Assembly (NCBI GenBank): GCA_025059205.1
Contig: JANXDS010000005.1
Location: 1 to 64,000 of the forward strand
From: Aigarchaeota archaeon
GTDB taxonomy: Archaea; Thermoproteota; Nitrososphaeria_A; Caldarchaeales; Wolframiiraptoraceae
Direction of reading: 5' to 3'
DNA length: 64,000 nucleotides
Of this stretch, positions 25,132 to 45,798 are shown in pieces. A model generated the notes under the pieces. It was not told where the DNA came from, ran no database searches, and saw nothing but the letters and a program-made list of their open reading frames with translations. Numbering within the stretch: position 1 is the stretch's first letter; each line of letters opens with the position of its first letter. The position numbers were made by a program, and so were the translations under genes.

Positions 25132-27993
25132 GTGGGCGAGCTGACAAGCGAAGGCGTGTTAGAATTACTGGCGAAACCCGTCAGAACAGCCTTCGTCGAA
25201 AGGTTTGGAGAGCTAACTCCACCCCAGATCGAAAGCATACCGAAGATACTTGAAGGTAAAAATCTGTTATTAATGGCACCAACCGGTACCGGAAAGACCG
25301 AGGCCGCCCTCCTGCCCATACTTAGTAATTTATTACAGAACCCGGGACTTCCGGGAATTAAGGCACTATACATAACGCCGCTCCGAGCGCTTAACCGGGA
25401 CATGTTGGAAAGGTTTGATTGGTGGGCAAAAAAACTAGACATTAACGTATCCGTCAGACATGGAGACACAGCCGTTGCGGAAAGGAGGGCACAAACCCTC
25501 ATCCCGCCAGACATACTAATAACGACTCCTGAAACACTGCAGGCAATCCTCTGCGGAAAAGTTCTCAGAAAGCACTTGAAGAGCGTAAAGTGGGTTGTCG
25601 TTGACGAGGTTCACGAACTTGCCACAGACAAGAGGGGTGCGCAACTCTCCATAGCGCTAGAGAGGTTATTGGAGATAGTTGGTTCCGAATTTCAGAGAAT
25701 AGGTCTCTCAGCCACTATCGGCAGCCCAAAAACAGTAGCCAAGTTCTTAGTTGGAGCCGGAAGAGAGTGCGAAATTGTAAGAGTCCCTGTAGCCAAGAGT
25801 ATGAAAATAGATGTTCTCTATCCTGTGCCGGAAGCTGAAGATGCCGTGCTAGCTGAAGAACTTGCGATCTTGCCAGACGTAGCGGCGAGGCTTAGGACGA
25901 TAAGGAGACTCGTGGAGTCGCATGGTTCAACGTTGATATTTACGAATACGAGACCTTTGGCGGAGATTCTGACAAATAGGTTTAGGGCGTGGGATGAGAA
26001 CTTCAGCGTGGGTATACACCATGGTTCACTAGCAAAATCCGCAAGGGTATCAACGGAGCAGGGTCTAAAGGCCGGTACACTGCTAGGTATAGTCTGCACA
26101 TCATCTCTGGAACTCGGTATAGATGTAGGCAGGGTAGACCTTTGTATACAATACAACTCTCCTAGAGAAGTAACGAGGCTTATACAGAGGGTCGGTAGAA
26201 GCGGTCATAGAATAGGAAGGGTAGCTAACGGCGTTATACTGGTCATGGACTCGGATGATGCTCTTGAGTCTATAGCCATAGCCAGAAGGGCGCTGGCGGA
26301 GGAGTTGGAAGAGGTTAGAATACCTACAAACTGTCTCGACGTCCTAATGCACCAACTTGCCGGGCTCCTGATAGAGCGCGGCCGCGTTAACGTCGAGGAT
26401 GCTTTGAGCATATTCAGGCGAGCCTATGGTTTCTCGGAGCTCGATAAGCACACGCTCCTAAGAGTTCTTGAACATATGAAGGCATTAAATATTTGTGTGC
26501 TTACAGACGATGGCTACTTCTGGAAACCTATCAAATCTAAGCCCCTTTACGATTACTATTTCGGAAACCTTTCTATGATACCAGAAGAAAAGCAATACTT
26601 GGTTGTCCAGGAGGACACAAGCGAGCCCATAGGCATATTGGATGAGGAGTTCGTCGCTGAATACGGTGAGCCCGGAACGAGATTCATATTGCTCGGTAAA
26701 GCATGGGAAATACTTAGCATGCTTGGCGAGAAGATCTACGTCAATAAATTGGACGAATATGAAGGTGCAGTACCTTCGTGGGTGGGCGACGAGATACCGG
26801 TTCCGTATGAGGTTGCGGAGGAGGTTGGCAGCCTAAGAGCAGAATACGAAGAGCGCCTCCGCAAAGGCGAGCCGCATGAGGTCATCTGCGCTGATATAGC
26901 GAAGAGATATGGTGTATCGGAAGAGTTAATCTCGAGAAGCATGGCTGAGGTTAGGGCGCATATCGACTTAGGGATACCGGTGCCTACGAACAGCAGGATA
27001 CTTGTAGAGAAGTCGGGAGAATATACCATAATACATATACATGCGGGACTTAGGATAAACAGGACCTTAGCCAAGGTTATTTCGTTCCTGGTGTCCGAGA
27101 AAGTCGGAATGCCCATCTCCGTCCAGCAAGACCCTTACAGGATCGTCATAAGATCGAAACACGTTTATCCAGAGCTCATCCTCGATGTCATAAAAAGCTT
27201 ATCCGAGGGGGATTTTGGTGAGGTCTTAAGGAAAGCTATCGAGGGGTCTACGTTATTCAGGAGGAGATTAGTTCATGTGGCAAGAAAAATGGGCGTCATT
27301 AGTAAAGAGGCGAGCATACTTGACGTCAATCTTTCTAAAATCGTTGAAGTATTGAAGGGTACGATAGTTTACGACGAGGCCATATCCTACTGTTTATTCC
27401 AAGACTTTGATGAATACAGTGCACGTGAGCTTATTCGCTCTATAGTTATGGGAAATTATGAGCTTGTAACTTACTCATCACCCGATACCGCGGGTCCCTC
27501 ACCTTTGGCATTGCTCACGCTCAGGCGTTATCAGGAGGCGTACGAAACCGTATCTTCAGATAGAATCGAAAAGTTAGTTTTGATGGCAGTTAGAGCTAGA
27601 CTGATGAACGAAACGGGCATTCTCATATGCTCCGATTGTTATCAGTACTTCGACAAAGTAGTGGTCAAGGATGTTGAGGAAAGACCTTCTTGTCCGGCAT
27701 GCGGTTCGAGAAAGCTCGGCTTCCTAAAGGGCGAGGTGGAAGATGTTTACGGTCTAATATCCAGAAAGGGTAAACCTATAAACAAAAAGGAGAAGGAGTT
27801 GCTCAAGGAAATAGAAAGAAGTTCGGATTTGGTAGAGAAGTACGGAAAGGCGGCCATCGTGGCGATATCTGGAAAAGGTTTTACTGTGAAAGATGCTGCT
27901 AAGGTTCTACAAAAGGAAGGAAGCTTAACAAATAGGTTGATACAGTACATAATCGAAGAAGAAAAGAACAAACTGATTGCGACATTCAAATGA
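25132..27993 (+). CDS. Lhr-type superfamily 2 helicase with C-terminal zinc ribbon
   Basis: 953 residues. Q-motif-like TPPQIESIP, Walker A MAPTGTGKTEAA (48-59), motif II DEVH (158-161), SATIG motif III, and motif VI QRVGRSGHRIG. The DEVH box and the large winged-helix/beta-barrel region after the RecA cores fit the Lhr (large helicase-related) family, which unwinds DNA:DNA and RNA:DNA forks with 3'-5' polarity and acts in repair or replication restart. A zinc ribbon (CSDC/CPAC, about 826-862) lies near the C-terminus, followed by a helical tail. The GTG start is the only in-frame option near the family N-terminus. The Nudix gene follows after 15 bases. Confidence 0.9.
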   Translation: MGELTSEGVLELLAKPVRTAFVERFGELTPPQIESIPKILEGKNLLLMAPTGTGKTEAALLPILSNLLQNPGLPGIKALYITPLRALNRDMLERFDWWAKKLDINVSVRHGDTAVAERRAQTLIPPDILITTPETLQAILCGKVLRKHLKSVKWVVVDEVHELATDKRGAQLSIALERLLEIVGSEFQRIGLSATIGSPKTVAKFLVGAGRECEIVRVPVAKSMKIDVLYPVPEAEDAVLAEELAILPDVAARLRTIRRLVESHGSTLIFTNTRPLAEILTNRFRAWDENFSVGIHHGSLAKSARVSTEQGLKAGTLLGIVCTSSLELGIDVGRVDLCIQYNSPREVTRLIQRVGRSGHRIGRVANGVILVMDSDDALESIAIARRALAEELEEVRIPTNCLDVLMHQLAGLLIERGRVNVEDALSIFRRAYGFSELDKHTLLRVLEHMKALNICVLTDDGYFWKPIKSKPLYDYYFGNLSMIPEEKQYLVVQEDTSEPIGILDEEFVAEYGEPGTRFILLGKAWEILSMLGEKIYVNKLDEYEGAVPSWVGDEIPVPYEVAEEVGSLRAEYEERLRKGEPHEVICADIAKRYGVSEELISRSMAEVRAHIDLGIPVPTNSRILVEKSGEYTIIHIHAGLRINRTLAKVISFLVSEKVGMPISVQQDPYRIVIRSKHVYPELILDVIKSLSEGDFGEVLRKAIEGSTLFRRRLVHVARKMGVISKEASILDVNLSKIVEVLKGTIVYDEAISYCLFQDFDEYSARELIRSIVMGNYELVTYSSPDTAGPSPLALLTLRRYQEAYETVSSDRIEKLVLMAVRARLMNETGILICSDCYQYFDKVVVKDVEERPSCPACGSRKLGFLKGEVEDVYGLISRKGKPINKKEKELLKEIERSSDLVEKYGKAAIVAISGKGFTVKDAAKVLQKEGSLTNRLIQYIIEEEKNKLIATFK

Positions 27994-28008: not shown

Positions 28009-28443
28009 ATGGGTAAGGAATATCCGAAAATGCCGGTTGTCGCCGTAGGTGCGTTGATACTTCAAGACCACAAAATACTTCTCGTTAAAAGAAAGAACGA
28101 ACCCGGCAAAGGAAGATGGTCCATTCCAGGCGGTACAGTTGAGCTTGGAGAATCGCTAAAGGATGCAGTGATCAGGGAAGTCTATGAAGAAACAGGCCTT
28201 GTGGTCGAGGTGTCCGAATTGCTTGACATTGTTGAAGTCATTAGGAAAGATGAAGTTGGAAACGTAATTTTCCATTACGTAATCCTCGACTACCTAGCCA
28301 AACCAATTAGCGGCACGCTTAGGGCTGCATCCGACGTCTCGGATGCCCTTTGGGCATCTATAGAGGAAGCTATGAATATGGAAATTACAGATAGCCTAAG
28401 GGCCATGCTTCGCAAGCTAAAAGAAAAAGGATTCTTCCGTTAG
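28009..28443 (+). CDS. Nudix hydrolase
   Basis: 144 residues with a complete Nudix box (about 41-63): GG-x4-GES-x7-REVYEETG. The N-terminal PVVAVGALILQDHKILLVKR and GRWSIPGG before the box are typical of ADP-ribose pyrophosphatase or MutT/NTP-pyrophosphatase members. The substrate is a nucleoside diphosphate linked to another group; which one cannot be decided by eye. It is probably co-transcribed with the upstream Lhr helicase and overlaps the convergent kite gene by 4 bases. Confidence 0.92.
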   Translation: MGKEYPKMPVVAVGALILQDHKILLVKRKNEPGKGRWSIPGGTVELGESLKDAVIREVYEETGLVVEVSELLDIVEVIRKDEVGNVIFHYVILDYLAKPISGTLRAASDVSDALWASIEEAMNMEITDSLRAMLRKLKEKGFFR

Positions 28444-29039
28444 ATTTTCTCTTTAGTATCATCCTTAGACTGAATTGGGCTGATGTCCGTTATAGCCTTC
28501 AGTAATTCTTTTTCGTCCACCTCAGCCAGTGTCCTCCACCCGATCTTTATCATGTTATCCTCAACTTTCATAAGATACCCTTTTCTGATAAACCGCTCTA
28601 TGGCTGCTTCTACTTTCCATTTCGGAAACTTCACCTCTAAGAGCTCCACCAACTCCTTCTCGGTAGCCTTGCCACCTTTAGTGAAGATGTAAGATAACGT
28701 TGCTGCCAAGATCGCCACGTCTTCTATACTCCAACCTGCAGCCACTATGTCTGCGACTGAGAGCGGTTCGGAGAGTGTTACGAAGAACCTAGCTTTATCG
28801 AAGTCGTCTTGGGCTGGGCTACCACTCGACGGTTGGTCGAACATTATCTTTATCCTAAGACCTATATTGTTCAGTTTATTGTTTAGCGCATCAATTATCT
28901 TTAGGTAATTTTTACCTAATCTCCTACGGAGTTCCCAACCCCTGACACCCGGAAGCCTGTGGCTTGAGAAGAGGAGCATGCTGGTGGCTATCGCTAACTT
29001 CTTACCCGCTCGCTCAGCCTCACTCTTTCTCTCTTCCAA
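28440..29039 (-). CDS. Tandem winged-helix kite-like (Nse1/Nse3-MAGE-like) subunit of an SMC operon
   Basis: About 199 residues from the TTG at 29039; a longer frame begins with ATG at 29063. The TTG is preferred because GAGGAGGTG, a near-perfect archaeal Shine-Dalgarno site, lies 10 bases before it and inside the longer version. Two helix-rich winged-helix-like units can be seen: the first around GWELRRRLGKNYLKIIDALN, the second around EKELVELLEVKFPKWKVEAA with RFIRKGYLMKV as the wing. The second resembles the WH-B domain of MAGE/Nse3. Kite proteins (ScpB, MukE, Nse1/Nse3) bind the kleisin of SMC complexes, and this gene is third in an SMC-kleisin-kite operon. ScpB-like assignment is the alternative. 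Confidence 0.65.
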   Translation of the reverse strand: MEERKSEAERAGKKLAIATSMLLFSSHRLPGVRGWELRRRLGKNYLKIIDALNNKLNNIGLRIKIMFDQPSSGSPAQDDFDKARFFVTLSEPLSVADIVAAGWSIEDVAILAATLSYIFTKGGKATEKELVELLEVKFPKWKVEAAIERFIRKGYLMKVEDNMIKIGWRTLAEVDEKELLKAITDISPIQSKDDTKEKI

Positions 29040-29811
29040 GATACTTTGGCACCTCCTCACCATTTAGGGAGATCGCGAATGTCGTTACTTTTTCTCTCTT
29101 ACGTTTTGAAGGATACGGCACTACCTTTATCTCGCCCGTGATGGGGTTCTTCTTTATTTCCGCTAAACCTTCGCTGACGACGAAGCTGAGCACGTAGGCT
29201 CTCCATACAGCTTCTTCGAAACTATCGGCACTTACTATGGACCAATAATCCAATTCACCACTGCTTCCCGCCTTAGCTAGGCATCTTTCGTGCATCTTCC
29301 TAACCTCTTCCTCCAACACCACGTCCTTCGCATAACCTGTCCCCTTCAGAATAAGCAATTTGTCTTCTTGTATCGTCGGAAGCTTCTCACGGACTCTGTC
29401 TCTGGGCGGTAGCATTAGGAAGTACTCCATACCCTGCCTTAGCCTGTAAAGCGTAAGCTGCTCGGCTCTGACTATAGGCCTCCAGCTCCTAGCGAGTGCC
29501 ATAGCCAACTGCTTCGGTTCAGCGGCGGCTATCTTGAGCGATACGAGTTGGCTATCTATGAAAAGCGATGATGCTCTTTCCTTTAACCACTTCTGTTGCA
29601 GCGATATCAAGACGGCTATCTTGTAAAGCGTCTCGGCGTCGAGGATTATTGTATCCAAATCCTTATGCTCTTCTAATATGCGCCTTAGCTTCACTAGGAG
29701 CTCTTTTACGTTGACCGAGAATGGGTCCAGACCCCTTTTCTCGATTGACTCACAAAGCGCTATTATCTTCTCCAGCTCCTCCCTACTCACCATCTTTCTT
29801 TCATGAGACAT
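29020..29811 (-). CDS. Nse4-like kleisin candidate of an SMC operon
   Basis: 263 residues. Residues 29-85 (beginning DPFSVNVKELLVKLRRIL, with LDTIILDAETLYKIAVLI after) look like the N-terminal kleisin helices that bind the SMC neck. Residues 188-233, with SIVSADSFEEAVWRAYVLSF followed by VVSEGLAEI and GEIKVVP, resemble the C-terminal winged helix of kleisins and especially the Nse4 C-terminal pattern (P-x-SF-x2-T-V-x4-Y-x-SFLV-x-DG). The centre is helical and less conserved, as in kleisins. The ATG at 29811 follows GAGAGGTAG and is 6 bases after the SMC gene; the kite gene begins inside its 3' end. Assignment rests on motif reading and operon position. Confidence 0.65.
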   Translation of the reverse strand: MSHERKMVSREELEKIIALCESIEKRGLDPFSVNVKELLVKLRRILEEHKDLDTIILDAETLYKIAVLISLQQKWLKERASSLFIDSQLVSLKIAAAEPKQLAMALARSWRPIVRAEQLTLYRLRQGMEYFLMLPPRDRVREKLPTIQEDKLLILKGTGYAKDVVLEEEVRKMHERCLAKAGSSGELDYWSIVSADSFEEAVWRAYVLSFVVSEGLAEIKKNPITGEIKVVPYPSKRKREKVTTFAISLNGEEVPKYLGREKE

Positions 29812-29817
29812 GCGACA

Positions 29818-31605
29818 CTACCTCTCTACTACGCCAACTGATGATTTTCCGCTGACGTTTTGGACGATAATGACGTTTGCGTCCTCGCCCACGTTTATAT
29901 AACCGGGCGTTATTATTATGTACTGGACGTGTGGATCTGCCCTTGCCGTTGCCGTCAACATCTTTACCATCCTATCCCTATTGAGCGGATCCAGGTGAAC
30001 GTCGAACTCATCAACGGCTCTGAACGGTGACTTGACGTACTTTTGCAACGCTAGAAGGAAGGCAAGCGTCGCTACTATTCTCTCACCACCACTCTGTGTG
30101 TGAGAGTCTAGAAGGACAGGTTCGACGCCCCTGAAACCAACGTAAAGGTCAAGGGATGCTTTCTCGATGTCCTCTAGGTTACGTAAAGATATCTTGCCGT
30201 TTGCATCAACAGATCTTAGTATCTGAATGTAAGCTGGCTCGACTTCTGTCACGAGCTTTCTTAAGAATTCCCTCCAAACCTCCTTTCTACGCTCGATCTC
30301 TTCCTTCGCTTTCTCTATGTTCTCGGATAGCTGCTTGGCTTTCATCTCGACCTCGCTGTACTTAGCATCCGCCAAGAGATACATCTCTTCTGCATTAGGT
30401 GTTACGCTGCCCAAAGAGTTTATCTGGACTTCTAAGATCTTCAAATCTTCTTGGATTTCCGTCGGTCTTCTGTTTGTCTCAACGCGAGGGCCTTTCGACT
30501 CGGCCTCGGACATCTGGGATGCGAGTTTCGTCTTCAACTCGCTTAACTGAGACTTTAGCTTTCTCATCTCAGACTCCGTTAGACGTATTTTAAATCTAGC
30601 AACACCTTCCTGCACCTTTTCGTCGATGAGTTCATCTATCAATTTCTCTATTCTTTTTTCCAGATCATCTAAAACCTCGGATGTCTGGGGCCCCATACCT
30701 CTTAGTTGACTTACGGCCTCACGAATCTTATTGCGTAAAGCCTCGGCCTTTGATTCGTGTTCACCAGCTTCTTTATTTAAGTCTTCGATTTCTAGGACGA
30801 GTGAGGCGATCTTATCCTCAACCCTCTTCACATCATTCTCTAGGACTATGACCTGAGACCAGGCAAGTTCCCGTTCAAGCTCAACCCTGTGATTCTCGAG
30901 CTTTCTGAGCTTTACTAGCTTCCCGTACTCTTCCTTCCAATATTCAACGGTCGCCCTCGCTTCCTCCAGCGTTTTCTTTAGACTCATCTCCTCTGTTAGC
31001 AACATGTTCAACTTTGCCTCAGCATCCACTATTCTCTCCCTGAGTCTCGACGCACCTACAGCATCTTCAACCATCTGAAGTTTTTCAACACTGCTTTTGG
31101 TTACGAACTGTTCTATCATGTTCTGATGCATTATGATGAGCATGTTGTTTGGGTTGATGCCAACCTGTCTAAGCAGGTGCTCGACCTCGGCCTTTGTCAT
31201 GAACTTATTGTTCACGTAATGCCAGTAGTCTCCATTTCTCTTGAGGTATCTGGCGATGGATACTGTGTCCGTGTTTATCGTTCTGAATGGTCTTTTACCG
31301 TTGTGGACGTTGTTATCAAACACGACGGTAACTCTAGCCACATCCTTTCCACGACGTATCAGGTCGCTTAGCCGCTCACCCCTCTCCGTGTAGGTCTGAC
31401 CGAGTGCGACGGATATTCCAAGCAGTATTGAGGACTTTCCAGCACCGTTGGGTCCCATTATGACGTTAAGGCCTGGCTTCAGCGGTATCCTAGAGTATTC
31501 ATGGGACATGAAGTTCTCCAGTATTACCTCTTTTATGTGAGGTACAGACCTGGTCTTCTGCTCCAGCTCAAGCCTTTCTGCGGGCCGTTCGTCCACATCT
31601 TTCAC
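29818..31605 (-). CDS. Short-armed Smc5/6-like ATPase
   Basis: 595 residues with an SMC-type split ABC ATPase. N-terminal head: NFMSHE (31-36), Walker A GPNGAGKS (51-58), Q-loop region IIMHQNMIEQF (157-167). C-terminal head: signature QSGGER (504-509), Walker B FRAVDEFDV (528-536), then DPLNRDRM and IIITP (563-567). NFM-H after a strand, DEFDV and the ITP at the H-loop position are marks of Smc5/Smc6 rather than Smc1-4 or Rad50. Between heads are two coiled coils of only about 110 and 140 residues, joined at a GMGPQ turn (303-307); no hinge domain is visible, although LGSVTPNAEEM (398-408) matches the post-hinge coil of SMCs. GTG start; GGAGGAG lies 11 bases upstream. First gene of the kleisin/kite operon. 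Confidence 0.85.
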   Translation of the reverse strand: MKDVDERPAERLELEQKTRSVPHIKEVILENFMSHEYSRIPLKPGLNVIMGPNGAGKSSILLGISVALGQTYTERGERLSDLIRRGKDVARVTVVFDNNVHNGKRPFRTINTDTVSIARYLKRNGDYWHYVNNKFMTKAEVEHLLRQVGINPNNMLIIMHQNMIEQFVTKSSVEKLQMVEDAVGASRLRERIVDAEAKLNMLLTEEMSLKKTLEEARATVEYWKEEYGKLVKLRKLENHRVELERELAWSQVIVLENDVKRVEDKIASLVLEIEDLNKEAGEHESKAEALRNKIREAVSQLRGMGPQTSEVLDDLEKRIEKLIDELIDEKVQEGVARFKIRLTESEMRKLKSQLSELKTKLASQMSEAESKGPRVETNRRPTEIQEDLKILEVQINSLGSVTPNAEEMYLLADAKYSEVEMKAKQLSENIEKAKEEIERRKEVWREFLRKLVTEVEPAYIQILRSVDANGKISLRNLEDIEKASLDLYVGFRGVEPVLLDSHTQSGGERIVATLAFLLALQKYVKSPFRAVDEFDVHLDPLNRDRMVKMLTATARADPHVQYIIITPGYINVGEDANVIIVQNVSGKSSVGVVER

Positions 31606-40051: not shown

Positions 40052-40933
40052 ATGACTCTGAAGCAACTCTTTGAACGTGCAAAGTTGCTTAGGCAAAGGC
40101 TGCTGGAAGAAGAAGGTAGCGAGAGATATAAAGAGTGGTTGGACAGAGCAAAAAATGTCTGGAAACCATATAAACCTGAGAAGGTTGGGAGAAAAGTTGC
40201 TGCAGTTGATAGCGGATGGAACTACAGAACGTATTGTGGTTTCTATCTATATGCCATCAGAGCTATTGCTGTTACACCATCCTCGGAAACTATTATTGAG
40301 CCCGTAGTCGAGGTTGATACGTTACCTATGGAGGCTGAAGGGGGCGGCATGAGTCCTGAGCTGTACATGCAAAAAGTAGCCGAATGTTATGAGCACGATT
40401 TGGCCTCAAGAGCATCGAAGGTTTTAGACGCGGTATTGGTTGACGGGTCTATTTTGGCTAGGCTGAATTTGATGTTTGTCCTCAAAAAAGTTAAGCTCTT
40501 CAGGGAGTACGTTGCTTATCTCAGACCGCTGAGAAATAAGAAAAACATCTTGTTCATCTCGAAGTACTCTCAAGATAGGAGCCTTGTGTGTGGAGCGTTG
40601 GGAGATGTTTACTACATCAATAAGGCTACAAGAGGCATAGGATATACGGAACCTATAATATCCGAAAAAGAAGGTACGACCGTATCGGTATTCTACGTGA
40701 GGTTATCGGAAAATTCCGATGCGATACATGTAGAAGTTCCTGCGATAGTTGATTCTGAATATGTTAGATCCATAATTGACGCGCTATACGGCACAACGGT
40801 CAATGGATACCCATATGCCCTCATGGTTGCACACGAAATGGCCTCGATACCTAATGATCTCATAAACATGCTCAGCGAAACGGCAGGGCTTTCTGTTCTA
40901 CCGACAGCCAGGGAGGTGCTCGAAGTTGGATGA
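40052..40933 (+). CDS. nurA: NurA 5'-3' nuclease
   Basis: 293 residues. Resects DNA ends together with HerA. The NurA domain begins with AAVDSGWN (51-58; Asp53 is the metal-binding residue), and later acidic positions are in VLVDGSILARL (about 131-141) and PAIVDSEYV. It is the first gene of nurA-herA-mre11-rad50, all on the plus strand with end overlaps: its stop lies 8 bases inside herA. The 130-base gap upstream divides it from the GfcR-like gene and holds TATA-like A/T stretches. Gene order differs from the Sulfolobus operon, where nurA and herA flank rad50 and mre11. Confidence 0.93.
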   Translation: MTLKQLFERAKLLRQRLLEEEGSERYKEWLDRAKNVWKPYKPEKVGRKVAAVDSGWNYRTYCGFYLYAIRAIAVTPSSETIIEPVVEVDTLPMEAEGGGMSPELYMQKVAECYEHDLASRASKVLDAVLVDGSILARLNLMFVLKKVKLFREYVAYLRPLRNKKNILFISKYSQDRSLVCGALGDVYYINKATRGIGYTEPIISEKEGTTVSVFYVRLSENSDAIHVEVPAIVDSEYVRSIIDALYGTTVNGYPYALMVAHEMASIPNDLINMLSETAGLSVLPTAREVLEVG

Positions 40934-42416
40934 AGTCGGAATCGTGGTCGGCGAGGCGCGACCTGAGCGAATACAATTCTCAGCTAAGGATATTGTCAGA
41001 GTTGGGGAATTCGTCACGGTAGATACTGTAGACGGGCGAGTTCTATACTTGGTTGAGTTCTCCAAGCTGGAGAGCAAACTTCTGTCAAAAGTACATGATT
41101 ACATAACGACGATCGAGGCGAGGGAGGCGAGCAAGGCCAACCCCAGAGATATTGTGAAGTATTGTATCGCAAAAGCCGTCGGACTTGTTGAAGAAGTTTT
41201 GAGAGGTGCACGCGTTTATCCTACGATGCCGCCTAATCCTGGTTCACCTGTATTTCTAGCAGAAGACGAGCTACTGAAAAGAATATTTCATAACGATTCG
41301 AAAGAATGGGTCGAAGTCGGAAGACTTTTGAGGAGGAAGAACGTTACCGTTTCCGTTAACCTGAATAAAATAGCCTCAAGACATCTCGCGATACTCGCAT
41401 CTACGGGCAAGGGAAAGTCTAACCTTTTGGCACTAATAGCGAAGAGGATAGCAGAGAAAAACGGGACCATGATAATACTGGACTATCATGCTGAGTATCA
41501 TGGCCTGAAGATAGGAAAGGTGAGGTTTGTGTCTCCGAAAATTAATCCAAGATACTTAGATTCCGAGGAGCTGGCGGATATGCTCGACATAAAAAGAGAC
41601 GCAACAAGGCAAAGAGGAGTGCTCAGAGAGGCATACACCAAAGAGGTAATGAATGCGCCAAACTTCTGGGAGGCTCTAAAGAAGAACTTAGATGACAAAG
41701 TAAAAGATGAGGACGAAGAATTTCAAACAAGGGCCACTGCCAAAAGGGTCATAGAAATAATCGAAAGAAATCTTGCGATAAAGGGTAACATATTCGATAC
41801 GGAAATAGAAAACCCACTCAATCTCGTTGAGCCCAATAGAATAAATGTGTTGGACCTTTCAGGTTTAACGGAAACCCAAGCGCAGATAATCGTGGCGCAT
41901 TATCTTGCAGAGATCTTGAACGACAGGAAAAACGCGATGTTTAAAAGAAGCTCGAGGTTCAGATCGCCCGTGGTCATAGCTGTTGAAGAAGCTCATACCT
42001 TCATACCACAGGACAGGAGTTCCAAATGCTCTGACGTTTTGGCTAGAATAGCGAGGGAGGGGAGAAAGTTTGGGGTTTCATTGATCTTAGTCTCACAAAG
42101 ACCATGTAAGTTGAACGCGGATGTAGTGAGTCAGATGGGTAGCTTCGCAATTTCTGGCTTAACCCATCCAAAAGACCAGCAGTTTGTTATGGAGGTGACG
42201 GACGAGGTCTCAACTGAGCTGGGCGCATCGTTACCAAGTCTCAACACTGGTGAGATGATATTGTCAGGCCAGTGGGTAACCGTGCCAGTACTCGTCAAAG
42301 TGGACCTAGTAGAGGAGAAGTACATGGGCATGGACTTGGATGCTGTAAGGTTGTGGGCCGAAGATGCTAGCGCAGGACACAGAAGGATATCAACGGAGGA
42401 ACTCATCAGGTTATGA
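40926..42416 (+). CDS. herA: HerA hexameric DNA translocase
   Basis: 496 residues. A HAS-barrel N-terminal domain is followed by an FtsK/HerA-type RecA core: Walker A ASTGKGKSN (158-166), Walker B VVIAVEEAHTFIP (about 340-352) and the arginine-finger region LARIAREGRKFGVS. HerA forms a hexamer that pumps DNA and drives NurA in end resection. The TTG start overlaps nurA by 8 bases and is the only start that keeps the complete HAS barrel. It ends in ATGA shared with mre11 (42413-42416). Confidence 0.95.
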   Translation: MDEVGIVVGEARPERIQFSAKDIVRVGEFVTVDTVDGRVLYLVEFSKLESKLLSKVHDYITTIEAREASKANPRDIVKYCIAKAVGLVEEVLRGARVYPTMPPNPGSPVFLAEDELLKRIFHNDSKEWVEVGRLLRRKNVTVSVNLNKIASRHLAILASTGKGKSNLLALIAKRIAEKNGTMIILDYHAEYHGLKIGKVRFVSPKINPRYLDSEELADMLDIKRDATRQRGVLREAYTKEVMNAPNFWEALKKNLDDKVKDEDEEFQTRATAKRVIEIIERNLAIKGNIFDTEIENPLNLVEPNRINVLDLSGLTETQAQIIVAHYLAEILNDRKNAMFKRSSRFRSPVVIAVEEAHTFIPQDRSSKCSDVLARIAREGRKFGVSLILVSQRPCKLNADVVSQMGSFAISGLTHPKDQQFVMEVTDEVSTELGASLPSLNTGEMILSGQWVTVPVLVKVDLVEEKYMGMDLDAVRLWAEDASAGHRRISTEELIRL

Positions 42417-43528
42417 TTATCGGACACCTGTCAGATACACATCTCGGAGCTTATGCAGGAAGGGATGAAGAAAGAGAGCAAGATTACTATGAAGCCTTTC
42501 AAGAAGCCATCGAGATTTTCATAAGGGAGCATACTAAGCTGGTCATCCATTCAGGCGATATACTGGACTCCTCTAAACCATACGGAACCGCCATGAGGGT
42601 CCTTGTAGAAGGTGTCAAAAGGCTGGATGAAAAAGGTATACGGTTCGTCTTTACTTTAGGTGAACACGACATATCCAACGTACCCAGCACACCTCACCCC
42701 AACATACTTGGGATATTGGGGCTTGCTAACTACATAGGAACGGGAGAACCTTTAGTTATAGGAGACATAGTGGTGGCGGGTCTTCATAAGTACAAGAAAG
42801 TTGAAAGAGAAACGCTGTGTGAGAAACTCAAAGGGGTAGCTAAGAAGGCAAAGCAGGTTGACGGAAAGAAAAGGATTCTCGTACTGCATCAAGGACTTAC
42901 TGAATTACGTGAATTCGCAGGCGAGATCTCTAAATACGATATTCCTGCAGAGTTTGACTACTATGCAATGGGACATTTTCATATGTTCCACGAGTTTAGA
43001 CATGGTAACGGTTTGGGTTCATACCCAGGAGCGACGCACTGGGTAGATTGGAGCGACTCAGAGACCTCTTTCGTTAATCTGGTCGATCTTTCTGCAGACG
43101 AGCCGAAAATAAACAAAGTCAGGTTAGAGTCCGTAAGGCCAAGAATCGAGAAAGACATAAAGTTTGAGGAGCTAGGAACTTTGGTACAGAATCTAACATC
43201 AATTTCGCATAAGAACCGTAAGAGACCTTGTCTCATGATAAGGGTAGAGACTAGTAAACCTTTTGACCCTAAATCTCTTGAAGATTCGCTAAGCGCATTT
43301 TACATCGTCACAATCAAACAGCTCTTAAAGGAGGTAGGTAGAGAAGTTATTCATGAAGCCCCTGACGTGGATGCTGAGTTGATGAGGTTGGTAGAGAGCG
43401 TATTGGGGAGTAAAGAAAAAGCTGAGTTTGCGTTATTTGAGTTACTCAAGGTTCTTAACGATGAAGATTGGAAGAAGGGCGCGCTGGAGCTTATCTGGAA
43501 GATCTTCAGGGAGGGCAGGTTGAGATGA
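42413..43528 (+). CDS. mre11: Mre11 double-strand-break nuclease
   Basis: 371 residues. Phosphoesterase motifs in order: SDTH (7-10), HSGDILDSS (46-54), GEHD (83-86), LVLHQG (about 160) and YYAMGHFHM (about 185). Together with Rad50 it detects and processes DNA ends. Motif III usually reads GNHD in Mre11, where the Asn holds a metal; here it is GEHD, a substitution that may be normal in this lineage. The C-terminal 120 residues form a short capping domain and Rad50-binding helices. It is coupled on both sides by ATGA overlaps (42413-42416 and 43525-43528). Confidence 0.94.
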   Translation: MIIGHLSDTHLGAYAGRDEEREQDYYEAFQEAIEIFIREHTKLVIHSGDILDSSKPYGTAMRVLVEGVKRLDEKGIRFVFTLGEHDISNVPSTPHPNILGILGLANYIGTGEPLVIGDIVVAGLHKYKKVERETLCEKLKGVAKKAKQVDGKKRILVLHQGLTELREFAGEISKYDIPAEFDYYAMGHFHMFHEFRHGNGLGSYPGATHWVDWSDSETSFVNLVDLSADEPKINKVRLESVRPRIEKDIKFEELGTLVQNLTSISHKNRKRPCLMIRVETSKPFDPKSLEDSLSAFYIVTIKQLLKEVGREVIHEAPDVDAELMRLVESVLGSKEKAEFALFELLKVLNDEDWKKGALELIWKIFREGRLR

Positions 43529-45798
43529 TCACTAAAGTTATTCTTAACAACTTTACCTCGCATAAAGAGACGTTCCTAGACCTGGGACCGGGCCTTAACG
43601 TATTCGTTGGTAGAAACGGTTCTGGAAAGACTTCTGTTGTAGATGGGATAACATACGCGCTTTTTGGCAAGCATGGAAGGGGGAACAACGTAAACATAGT
43701 TAGGGACGGGGCGTCTAGAGGTTACGTAGAAGTCGAGTTCGTACTCGACGGCAAAACATACGTTGTAGGTAGGCATTTTGATGGACAAGGTAGGTTAGAG
43801 GATGCTTACTTAAAATTTGACGGAAAACCTTTGGTGAGCGGTGAGAGAAAGAGAGAGGACGCGGTAACCAGAAAGATTGAAGAAATCATGCGCATGGGAT
43901 ACGAGAGATTGAGGGCTTCTGTGATCATCCAGCAAGGGGAGATCGACAGAATACTTTCTTGGCAACCCAGGGAGATAAAAGCACTATTCGACGATCTCCT
44001 GGGCCTTAGTATGATGGAGAGCGCCTACAGAAAGATGGGTGATGTGATTAAGGATTTTGAGGAAAGGATAAGGAAGGATACAGGATACTCCGTCGAGGAC
44101 GTCGAAAGGGTCCGCAGAGAAATCTCAGAATACGAGTCCGCGATAAGCAAGCTTAACGAGGGATTGAGAGAGAAAGGACGACAGCTTGCTGAGCTAAAGG
44201 AAAAGTATGAAATAATGAGGTCTGAGCTAGAAAAGATGGAGCAATTCAGGGAGGCATACTACAAAGCATCGTCCCAAATCGGCTCCATTACCGATATCGT
44301 TAAGGATTGGTTGAAGAAAGAGAGGGAAGAGCTCAGGAAATGCGAGTCGGCATTAGAGCTGATGAAGTTAAAGGAAGAAGTCGAAGAGAGAGTAAGGCTG
44401 AGGGATAGGCTAAAAGAAGAGGTCATGAAGCTGGAGAAGGATATTGAGTATTTGAAGATAGAAATCGGCCGGGTTGAGGAAGAAAGGAAGGAGGTAACAA
44501 AAAAGCTAGAAGCACTAGATAAAGAAAGTTTTAGGGGAAGGTCGTTTTCTGAAATCGTTAGAGAGGTCGACAGCAAAGCTGTCGAACTCATTGACCTGGC
44601 CGTAGAACTTGGTAAATCGTTAGCGACCAGGGACGGTAGAGAAGGTTTTCTAAAGGAAGCTTTGGAGAACAAGAAAAAGGAAGTGCTCGGGCTTTTCGAG
44701 GAATCTTATAGATCCGGACTAAAAGCGTACTTCGAGGACTTGGAGACCAAGATAAAGAGCCTGAACGGAGAAGCGGAGATTCTCTCGTCAAAGCTAGAGT
44801 CAGCAAGTCTGAAGCTAAAAGACACGAAAGATAGATTGGTACAGCTATCCAAGCTGAATGGTGAGAGCCTTGAGGATTTGCAGGAATGGATTAGAAGGGC
44901 TCAGATTATATTGGAGGCTGTCGGTATCGATAGTAGAGAGAAGTTTAACCTAAGGAAGGCAAAGCTAGAAAGCGTTGAGAAAACCCTTGCATCAATATCG
45001 GAAGATAAGCTTCCAGAGCCTAAGTTACTCTATGCTCTAGCCGTGACGGATGACATCGTTCATAAGATAAAAAGCGTAGAGGCCGTGATGTCGGAGGCCA
45101 AGACCTTCGATAACGAACTGTACAACAACCTCAGGAAGTCTTGTGAAGAGTTGCAGAAGAGTATCGCTTCTTTGGAAGTCGAGGTTGAGAGGGACCGAAA
45201 AGATATCAAGGAGAAAGAGGATGGACTTTCTAGGCTCAAAAACGTCATAAACACATTAGAAGACGCCAGAAAGTTACGGGACTTCCTCGTCGACGTTAGG
45301 GATAAGGTATACTATAGAGATGGGCCTGTCCTCAAGTCTCTAAGGTCGTGGGCTATCAAAGAAGTATCAAGGCTCGCTACTGAGAACCTGGAATTATTCA
45401 GCGTAAACGTAGATGGTGTAAAGCTCGGGGAGATTAGGAACGAACTCGAGATAAAGTGTTACCAGAGGGGGCGGGAAGCCCATACTGATAGGCTTAGCGG
45501 CGGTGAGAAAGTTGCCGTAGCTCTGGCCCTTAGGCTTGCCATCGGTGACATACTTGGTGCAAGAAGGTTAGGCTTCTTCGTACTCGACGAACCAACAGTG
45601 CACTTAGACTCCGAGAATAAGATGAAACTTGCGGAGGTTTTTTCGGCACTGAGCAAAGGTGTCAGGCAGGTTATCGTAATCACACACGACGAAGAAGTTT
45701 TCGAGGAGGCTGAGGCTATACTTTACAAGTTCGAGAGAAGTACTGGAACAGAGGAATACAGCAAGGTGGAGCTAGTAGGAAGACCAATTAGAAAGTGA
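43525..45798 (+). CDS. rad50: Rad50 ATPase without a zinc-hook motif
   Basis: 757 residues from the ATG at 43525, which overlaps the mre11 stop as ATGA; the frame is open upstream to 43468 but that part lies inside mre11. Walker A GRNGSGKT (29-36), Q-loop IIQQGEID (about 142-149), signature RLSGGEKVA and Walker B FFVLDEPTVHLD near the C-terminus are intact. The arms are long coiled coils, but the protein has only three cysteines and no CXXC, so the zinc hook that dimerises Rad50 is missing. Non-coil stretches around 335-375 and 500-530 may mark a different apex. It is about 120 residues shorter than typical archaeal Rad50. Confidence 0.94.
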   Translation: MITKVILNNFTSHKETFLDLGPGLNVFVGRNGSGKTSVVDGITYALFGKHGRGNNVNIVRDGASRGYVEVEFVLDGKTYVVGRHFDGQGRLEDAYLKFDGKPLVSGERKREDAVTRKIEEIMRMGYERLRASVIIQQGEIDRILSWQPREIKALFDDLLGLSMMESAYRKMGDVIKDFEERIRKDTGYSVEDVERVRREISEYESAISKLNEGLREKGRQLAELKEKYEIMRSELEKMEQFREAYYKASSQIGSITDIVKDWLKKEREELRKCESALELMKLKEEVEERVRLRDRLKEEVMKLEKDIEYLKIEIGRVEEERKEVTKKLEALDKESFRGRSFSEIVREVDSKAVELIDLAVELGKSLATRDGREGFLKEALENKKKEVLGLFEESYRSGLKAYFEDLETKIKSLNGEAEILSSKLESASLKLKDTKDRLVQLSKLNGESLEDLQEWIRRAQIILEAVGIDSREKFNLRKAKLESVEKTLASISEDKLPEPKLLYALAVTDDIVHKIKSVEAVMSEAKTFDNELYNNLRKSCEELQKSIASLEVEVERDRKDIKEKEDGLSRLKNVINTLEDARKLRDFLVDVRDKVYYRDGPVLKSLRSWAIKEVSRLATENLELFSVNVDGVKLGEIRNELEIKCYQRGREAHTDRLSGGEKVAVALALRLAIGDILGARRLGFFVLDEPTVHLDSENKMKLAEVFSALSKGVRQVIVITHDEEVFEEAEAILYKFERSTGTEEYSKVELVGRPIRK

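Follow-up and report, generated by a model that had tools for sequence, protein, structure and literature searches.

The hinge is regarded as a core element of SMC rings and of loop-extrusion models, and canonical SMC and Smc5/6 proteins share homologous hinges. In yeast, the Smc5/6 DNA clamp is formed by the engaged heads, the necks, Nse4 and Nse1/3 (PMC9191643). Archaeal Smc-ScpA has been argued to be generally without a kite subunit (ScpB) (PMC7055376), and the archaeal SMC-like ATPases ASRP (coalescin, Sph) and Rad50 bear a zinc hook (PMC9389158). A set of archaeal "SMC5/6-related" SMCs was described by Yoshinaga and Inagaki in 2021 (cited in PMC9389158), and the accessible text on these proteins says nothing of a lost hinge or of kleisin and kite genes linked to them.

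Here we describe a locus in the window, by which we mean the whole 64,000-nt stretch of Aigarchaeota DNA that was analysed, at which three adjoining genes likely encode a three-subunit complex of the SMC5/6 branch, consisting of a hingeless SMC homodimer, an Nse4-like kleisin and a kite, and acting as a DNA clamp that resembles a head module. We refer to these genes as A, B and C; all three, with every feature given within them, lie on the minus strand. Gene A (29818..31605) starts with GTG and encodes 595 aa. We observe that it is an ATPase of the SMC superfamily with intact motifs, in which Walker A lies N-terminally, the signature and Walker B lie C-terminally and a coiled coil connects them, and the SMC_N match (Pfam, 6e-39) places its half-domains at the two ends of the protein. 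The N-terminal half of the head (residues 22-185; 31051..31542), delimited by the AlphaFold2 model and invariant residues, contains the Walker A motif GPNGAGKS (residues 51-58; 31432..31455), with seven of its eight residues invariant in 46 sequences, and the Q-loop residue Q161, which is invariant among the 46 relatives. The C-terminal half (29836..30213) carries the signature SGGER (505-509) and the Walker B/D-loop FRAVDEFDVHLD (528-539), in which S505, G506, G507 and E508, together with D532, E533, H537 and D539, are invariant across the same 46 sequences.

Next, we investigated to which SMC branch A belongs. A single-sequence search of the PDB returned yeast Smc5 first (9e-37), and with the family profile the top ten matches were all Smc5/Smc6 chains (182-217 bits), compared to 172 bits for the best canonical SMC. 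In a maximum-likelihood tree of 39 sequences and 392 positions from the two head halves, with canonical SMCs included and four Rad50 sequences serving as outgroup, A groups with Smc5 and Smc6 apart from canonical SMC and Rad50 (aLRT/UFBoot 97.4/99); eukaryotes are represented in this tree by a single long-branched yeast sequence for each of Smc5 and Smc6, and HMMER alignments were the source from which the head sequences of eukaryotes, Pyrococcus and bacteria were transcribed. The AU test rejects placing A with canonical SMC (p 0.023) as well as placing Smc5/6 with canonical SMC (p 0.033), these being modest p-values from 5000 resamplings, and the tree leaves the branching order among A, Smc5 and Smc6 unsettled. 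Profile scores, tree and AU test thus agree in assigning A to the eukaryotic Smc5/Smc6 side and not to canonical SMC, which upholds the Smc5/6-like character proposed in a first-pass annotation of this DNA, and A very probably falls among the archaeal SMCs that group with SMC5/6. Against the curated model for canonical archaeal SMC (TIGR02169) A scores 208 bits, with a cut-off of 729. An ASRP or Rad50 identity was rejected, as A reaches 80 bits against the ASRP model (593 positions; cut-off 300) and contains neither a Cys nor a CxxC, and hence no zinc hook.

Upon examining the region between the half-domains, we find that AlphaFold2 (single chain, alignment of 46 relatives, mean pLDDT 84) models two antiparallel helical arms that meet at a five-residue loop, with no domain carried at the tip. 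The N-terminal arm is one unbroken helix of 118 residues (186-303; 30697..31050), corresponding to approximately 18 nm at 1.5 A per residue. The tip loop (304-308; 30682..30696) occupies the usual hinge position, and the returning arm consists of a helix at 309-371 (30493..30681), a break at 372-380 (30466..30492) that opens the conserved motif GxRVETxRxPxEI in the alignment, a helix at 381-397, a loop at 398-404 and a head-proximal helix at 405-464 (30214..30393). The pLDDT of the arms is mostly 82-96, and that of the tip is 58. The arm lengths (roughly 110 and 140 residues), the GMGPQ turn and the second break that had been read from the letters alone agree with this model to within about 15 residues.

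The absence of a hinge domain, claimed at the same time, is confirmed computationally. SMC_hinge (PF06470) finds no match in A (Pfam), the turn at 304-308 is bare in the AlphaFold2 model, and across residues 295-385 no compact hinge-like domain is predicted by AlphaFold2 or matched by Pfam. Additionally, SMC_hinge does not figure among the 25 Pfam families with the most matches in the 46 aligned relatives, and it has no match in three of the longest forms of the family. In the longer frames (680-760 aa, three of which were checked for a hinge) the added length consists of arms, which exceed those of A by up to about 100 residues, while some long frames merely begin upstream of the true start. 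The sequence LGSVTPNAEE (398-407; 30385..30414) had been taken for a retained post-hinge segment and is reinterpreted here. It aligns to PVNMKAIEDF of the Pyrococcus SMC, at the head-proximal joint position, and by this alignment it represents a joint motif common to canonical SMCs. In a hinge-bearing korarchaeal SMC (L121) the hinge spans 312-417 and the corresponding IGQVNPNAEIEY motif lies far downstream, close to the C-terminal head; LGSVTPNAEE is therefore uninformative about the hinge.

Every SMC requires two heads to be brought together, and A could in principle dimerise either at the tips of its coiled coil or, as a rod, along the arms, in which case it would form a short closed ring and work as a smaller ordinary SMC. 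The uncertain model of the tip (pLDDT 58) would accommodate such a contact, and the longer arms of the relatives mean that it could be lineage-specific; however, among the helical parts of the protein conservation is lowest at the tip, the GMGPQ turn varies even inside the genus, and the lack of Cys leaves no zinc hook. We consider a tip or arm dimer unlikely, and the earlier suggestion that A dimerises through the turn is not favoured. Two A subunits may also be joined by some other bridging partner. For the clamp complex that we prefer, the adjoining kleisin and kite genes offer an alternative means to join the two heads.

Gene B (29020..29811; 263 aa) begins 6 nt past A, and gene C (28440..29063; 207 aa) shares 44 nt with B. 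We found that B is a kleisin with Nse4 as its best match by both profile and fold. Its profile against the PDB matches human and yeast Nse4 (1e-4) and then ScpA (0.16), and Foldseek with the single-chain AlphaFold2 model, which is partly confident (mean pLDDT 78, pTM 0.39), places two Nse4 chains at the top (9e-6 and 9e-5), followed by cohesin and ScpA kleisins. Nse4_C is matched by 23 of 44 relatives of B, the B protein of the window itself scoring below the Pfam cut-off. Furthermore, in three true ScpA proteins (defined by PF02616, up to 1e-14) both the N- and the C-terminal domain are matched by the B profile, with their order kept. The N-terminal helical domain of B (residues 2-83; 29563..29808) is a putative SMC-neck binder by its colinearity with the ScpA N-terminus and by the model, and the C-terminal winged helix (about 186-232; 29116..29256) is a putative SMC-cap binder by its likeness to the ScpA C-wHD (TM 0.78, 2.4 A, Foldseek) and by Nse4_C. 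A kite identity for C, probably of the MAGE/Nse1-like type, appears fairly well supported: MAGE (1.2e-4) and Nse1 (0.024) both match below their curated cut-offs, 13 and 14 of 39 relatives match MAGE and Nse1, respectively, and the C profile has weak matches in the PDB (0.02-0.1). No RING was matched by Pfam in C, whose 207 aa include a single Cys. Almost all of the loci compared preserve the A-B-C order, the median gaps being -3 and -7 nt, and among 22 additional loci that belong to other families 20 have it as well, with one of the exceptions ending at a contig edge; the SMC-kleisin-kite operon is thus conserved.

We also examined the genes around the operon. An Lhr-type DEAD-box helicase gene (25132..27993, plus strand; Pfam WH_Lhr and DEAD_assoc) is convergent with the operon in the window. 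The same arrangement is observed in 29 loci, usually with the helicase just past the kite gene, and spans Caldarchaeales to Hadarchaeota and Korarchaeota; it is an old gene order and may reflect a functional link. Upstream of A, an opposite-strand gene, mostly of 226-251 aa and mostly adjoining (L072:5185-5868 and 11 loci), was seen in Hadarchaeota, Korarchaeota and Methanomethylicota, with no confident Pfam match. Approximately 8.5 kb from the SMC operon, the window contains NurA, HerA, an Mre11-like phosphoesterase and Rad50 in one run (40052-45798).

When examining the spread of the family, we observe that the closest relatives of A are in Candidatus Terraquivivens (Caldarchaeales) and that A is present in 42 of the 44 genomes of its order, in 116 of 299 sampled Thermoproteota genomes (61 of 126 genera) and in 21 of 28 Hadarchaeota genomes. 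Many genomes without A are 99% complete, indicating that whole families lack it. Apart from split contigs, each genome has a single strong match. Full frames, fragments aside, span about 550-760 aa and are short throughout, none of the members checked gave a hinge match, and the hingeless short form is common to Caldarchaeales, Methanomethylicota, Korarchaeota, Geothermarchaeota and Hadarchaeota. A recent deletion of the middle of A, which had been raised as an alternative, is excluded by the occurrence of the short form from Caldarchaeales to Hadarchaeota.

The genome of the window also encodes a separate canonical SMC of 1154 aa (contig C4; L123, L128), with a hinge region that is unrecognised by PF06470; after it come a diverged kleisin-like gene and ScpB (3e-39), and no ScpA was found in this genome by PF02616. 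The presence of ScpB beside this SMC contrasts with the general lack of ScpB that has been argued for archaeal Smc complexes (PMC7055376). Since the canonical SMC has its own kleisin-like gene and ScpB, B and C are not required for the canonical system. This weighs against A being a lone repair ATPase similar to RecN or Rad50, with B and C as chance neighbours or as servants of the canonical SMC. Such a protein has a precedent in bacterial RecN, a hingeless short-armed SMC relative, and the PDB and Pfam matches of C are weak, but A groups with Smc5/6 in profile and tree, and B and C trail it across several phyla, making a lone ATPase very unlikely and leaving the three-subunit complex as the reading that we retain.

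Canonical-type SMCs of other archaea vary in length and hinge content. In Hadarchaeota and Hodarchaeaceae, they have 732-773 aa and no recognised hinge, group with Pyrococcus SMC and lie beside a ScpA (L118:718-2976, L119:795-2990, L120:752-3070), and this is apparently a second, independent hinge loss. The korarchaeal (Methanodesulfokora) canonical SMC introduced above (L121:994-3285; 764 aa) has a clear hinge (1.5e-22) and very short arms. In six genomes (G047, G068, G091, G222, G250 and G319) no SMC above 1000 aa was found (PF02463, E<1e-8), with A being the best SMC_N match, and A may be the only SMC there.

The short form and its wide spread in archaea could also suggest that A is an ancestral hinge-free SMC, as the first-pass annotation had entertained, and that hinges were gained later. 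However, with homologous hinges in both canonical SMC and eukaryotic Smc5/6, A most simply lost its hinge before the archaeal lineages split; on the tree a single loss is more parsimonious than two gains, and the Hadarchaeota canonical SMC appears to show a separate loss. We therefore regard an ancestral state as highly improbable and the hinge loss in A as probably ancient and derived. A Wadjet- or Lamassu-like defence system was rejected and is hardly credible, since the PADLOC models LmuB and mad3 match A (3e-25 and 4e-31) as general SMC/ATPase matches, whereas no PADLOC model matches B or C, no nuclease partner was seen among the recurrent neighbours, and A is near-universal and single-copy in its order, with conserved synteny.

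In the complex that we propose, A is expected to form a homodimer because each genome has one strong match. Upon ATP binding two A heads would engage, B would bridge them by contacting one at its neck and the other at its cap, and two C subunits would be seated on B; heads, B and C would then enclose DNA resting on the engaged heads, much as the Smc5/6 head module does, until ATP hydrolysis reopens the clamp. We propose this A2-B-C2 arrangement on the grounds that the parts of the yeast clamp are all matched apart from a second paralogue each for SMC and kite. Kleisin, kite and ATP would keep the complex together in place of a hinge. As the absence of a hinge and the 18-nm arms leave no hinge-closed SMC ring, the capture of large loops is unexpected, and the complex would instead grip, bridge or take short steps along DNA. 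We infer the stoichiometry, the clamp action and a cellular role in chromosome maintenance or repair. In B. subtilis, Smc with shortened arms keeps head engagement and ATPase activity intact, while coupling to redistribution and DNA entrapment can fail (PMC5344682); by analogy, the hingeless archaeal SMC may have dispensed with the coupling step at which the short-armed protein fails.

In the literature searched, where the 2021 SMC phylogeny was represented through a citing paper, we found nothing direct on a hinge-less archaeal SMC, including its kleisin-kite operon. It is an evenly balanced prospect that a complete hingeless SMC-kleisin-kite system of the Smc5/6 branch works across several archaeal phyla, in some lineages (e.g. 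Methanomethylicota) as the sole SMC. If true, the head-kleisin-kite clamp would suffice by itself as a DNA machine, and archaea would have possessed a homodimer of the Smc5/6 type together with its kleisin and kite. An archaeal ancestry of the Smc5/6 complex has also been traced in later work. Our findings support an archaeal origin of its core, a homodimeric system of SMC, Nse4-like kleisin and kite. An SMC that lacks a hinge, is ancient and widespread and retains kleisin and kite offers a natural experiment on the function of hinge and long arms, and A-B-C could be purified from a thermophile.

Overall, the locus shares features with each of the described systems and departs from each. Like ASRP and Rad50, A is an archaeal SMC-like ATPase, and the ASRP model is of similar length. 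Like archaeal Smc-ScpA and bacterial Smc-ScpAB, the locus follows the SMC, kleisin and kite plan, with B colinear with ScpA; these systems have a hinge and long arms, whereas A has neither, and A-B-C has an operon-linked kite-like gene, a subunit that archaeal Smc-ScpA is argued to be generally without (PMC7055376). Unlike Smc5/6, A carries no hinge, its arms measure about 18 nm where those of ordinary SMCs reach about 50 nm (PMC9191643), a single SMC gene replaces the heterodimeric SMC pair and a single kite gene the kite pair, C has no RING, unlike Nse1, and no Nse2, Nse5 or Nse6 was seen in the operon or among the recurrent neighbours inspected. The closest resemblance is nevertheless to eukaryotic Smc5/6-Nse4-Nse1/Nse3, with the same SMC head branch, an Nse4-like kleisin and a kite-like partner, and A combines in one protein the Smc5-like HTQSGGER with the Smc6-like NFMxHE and DEFDV.
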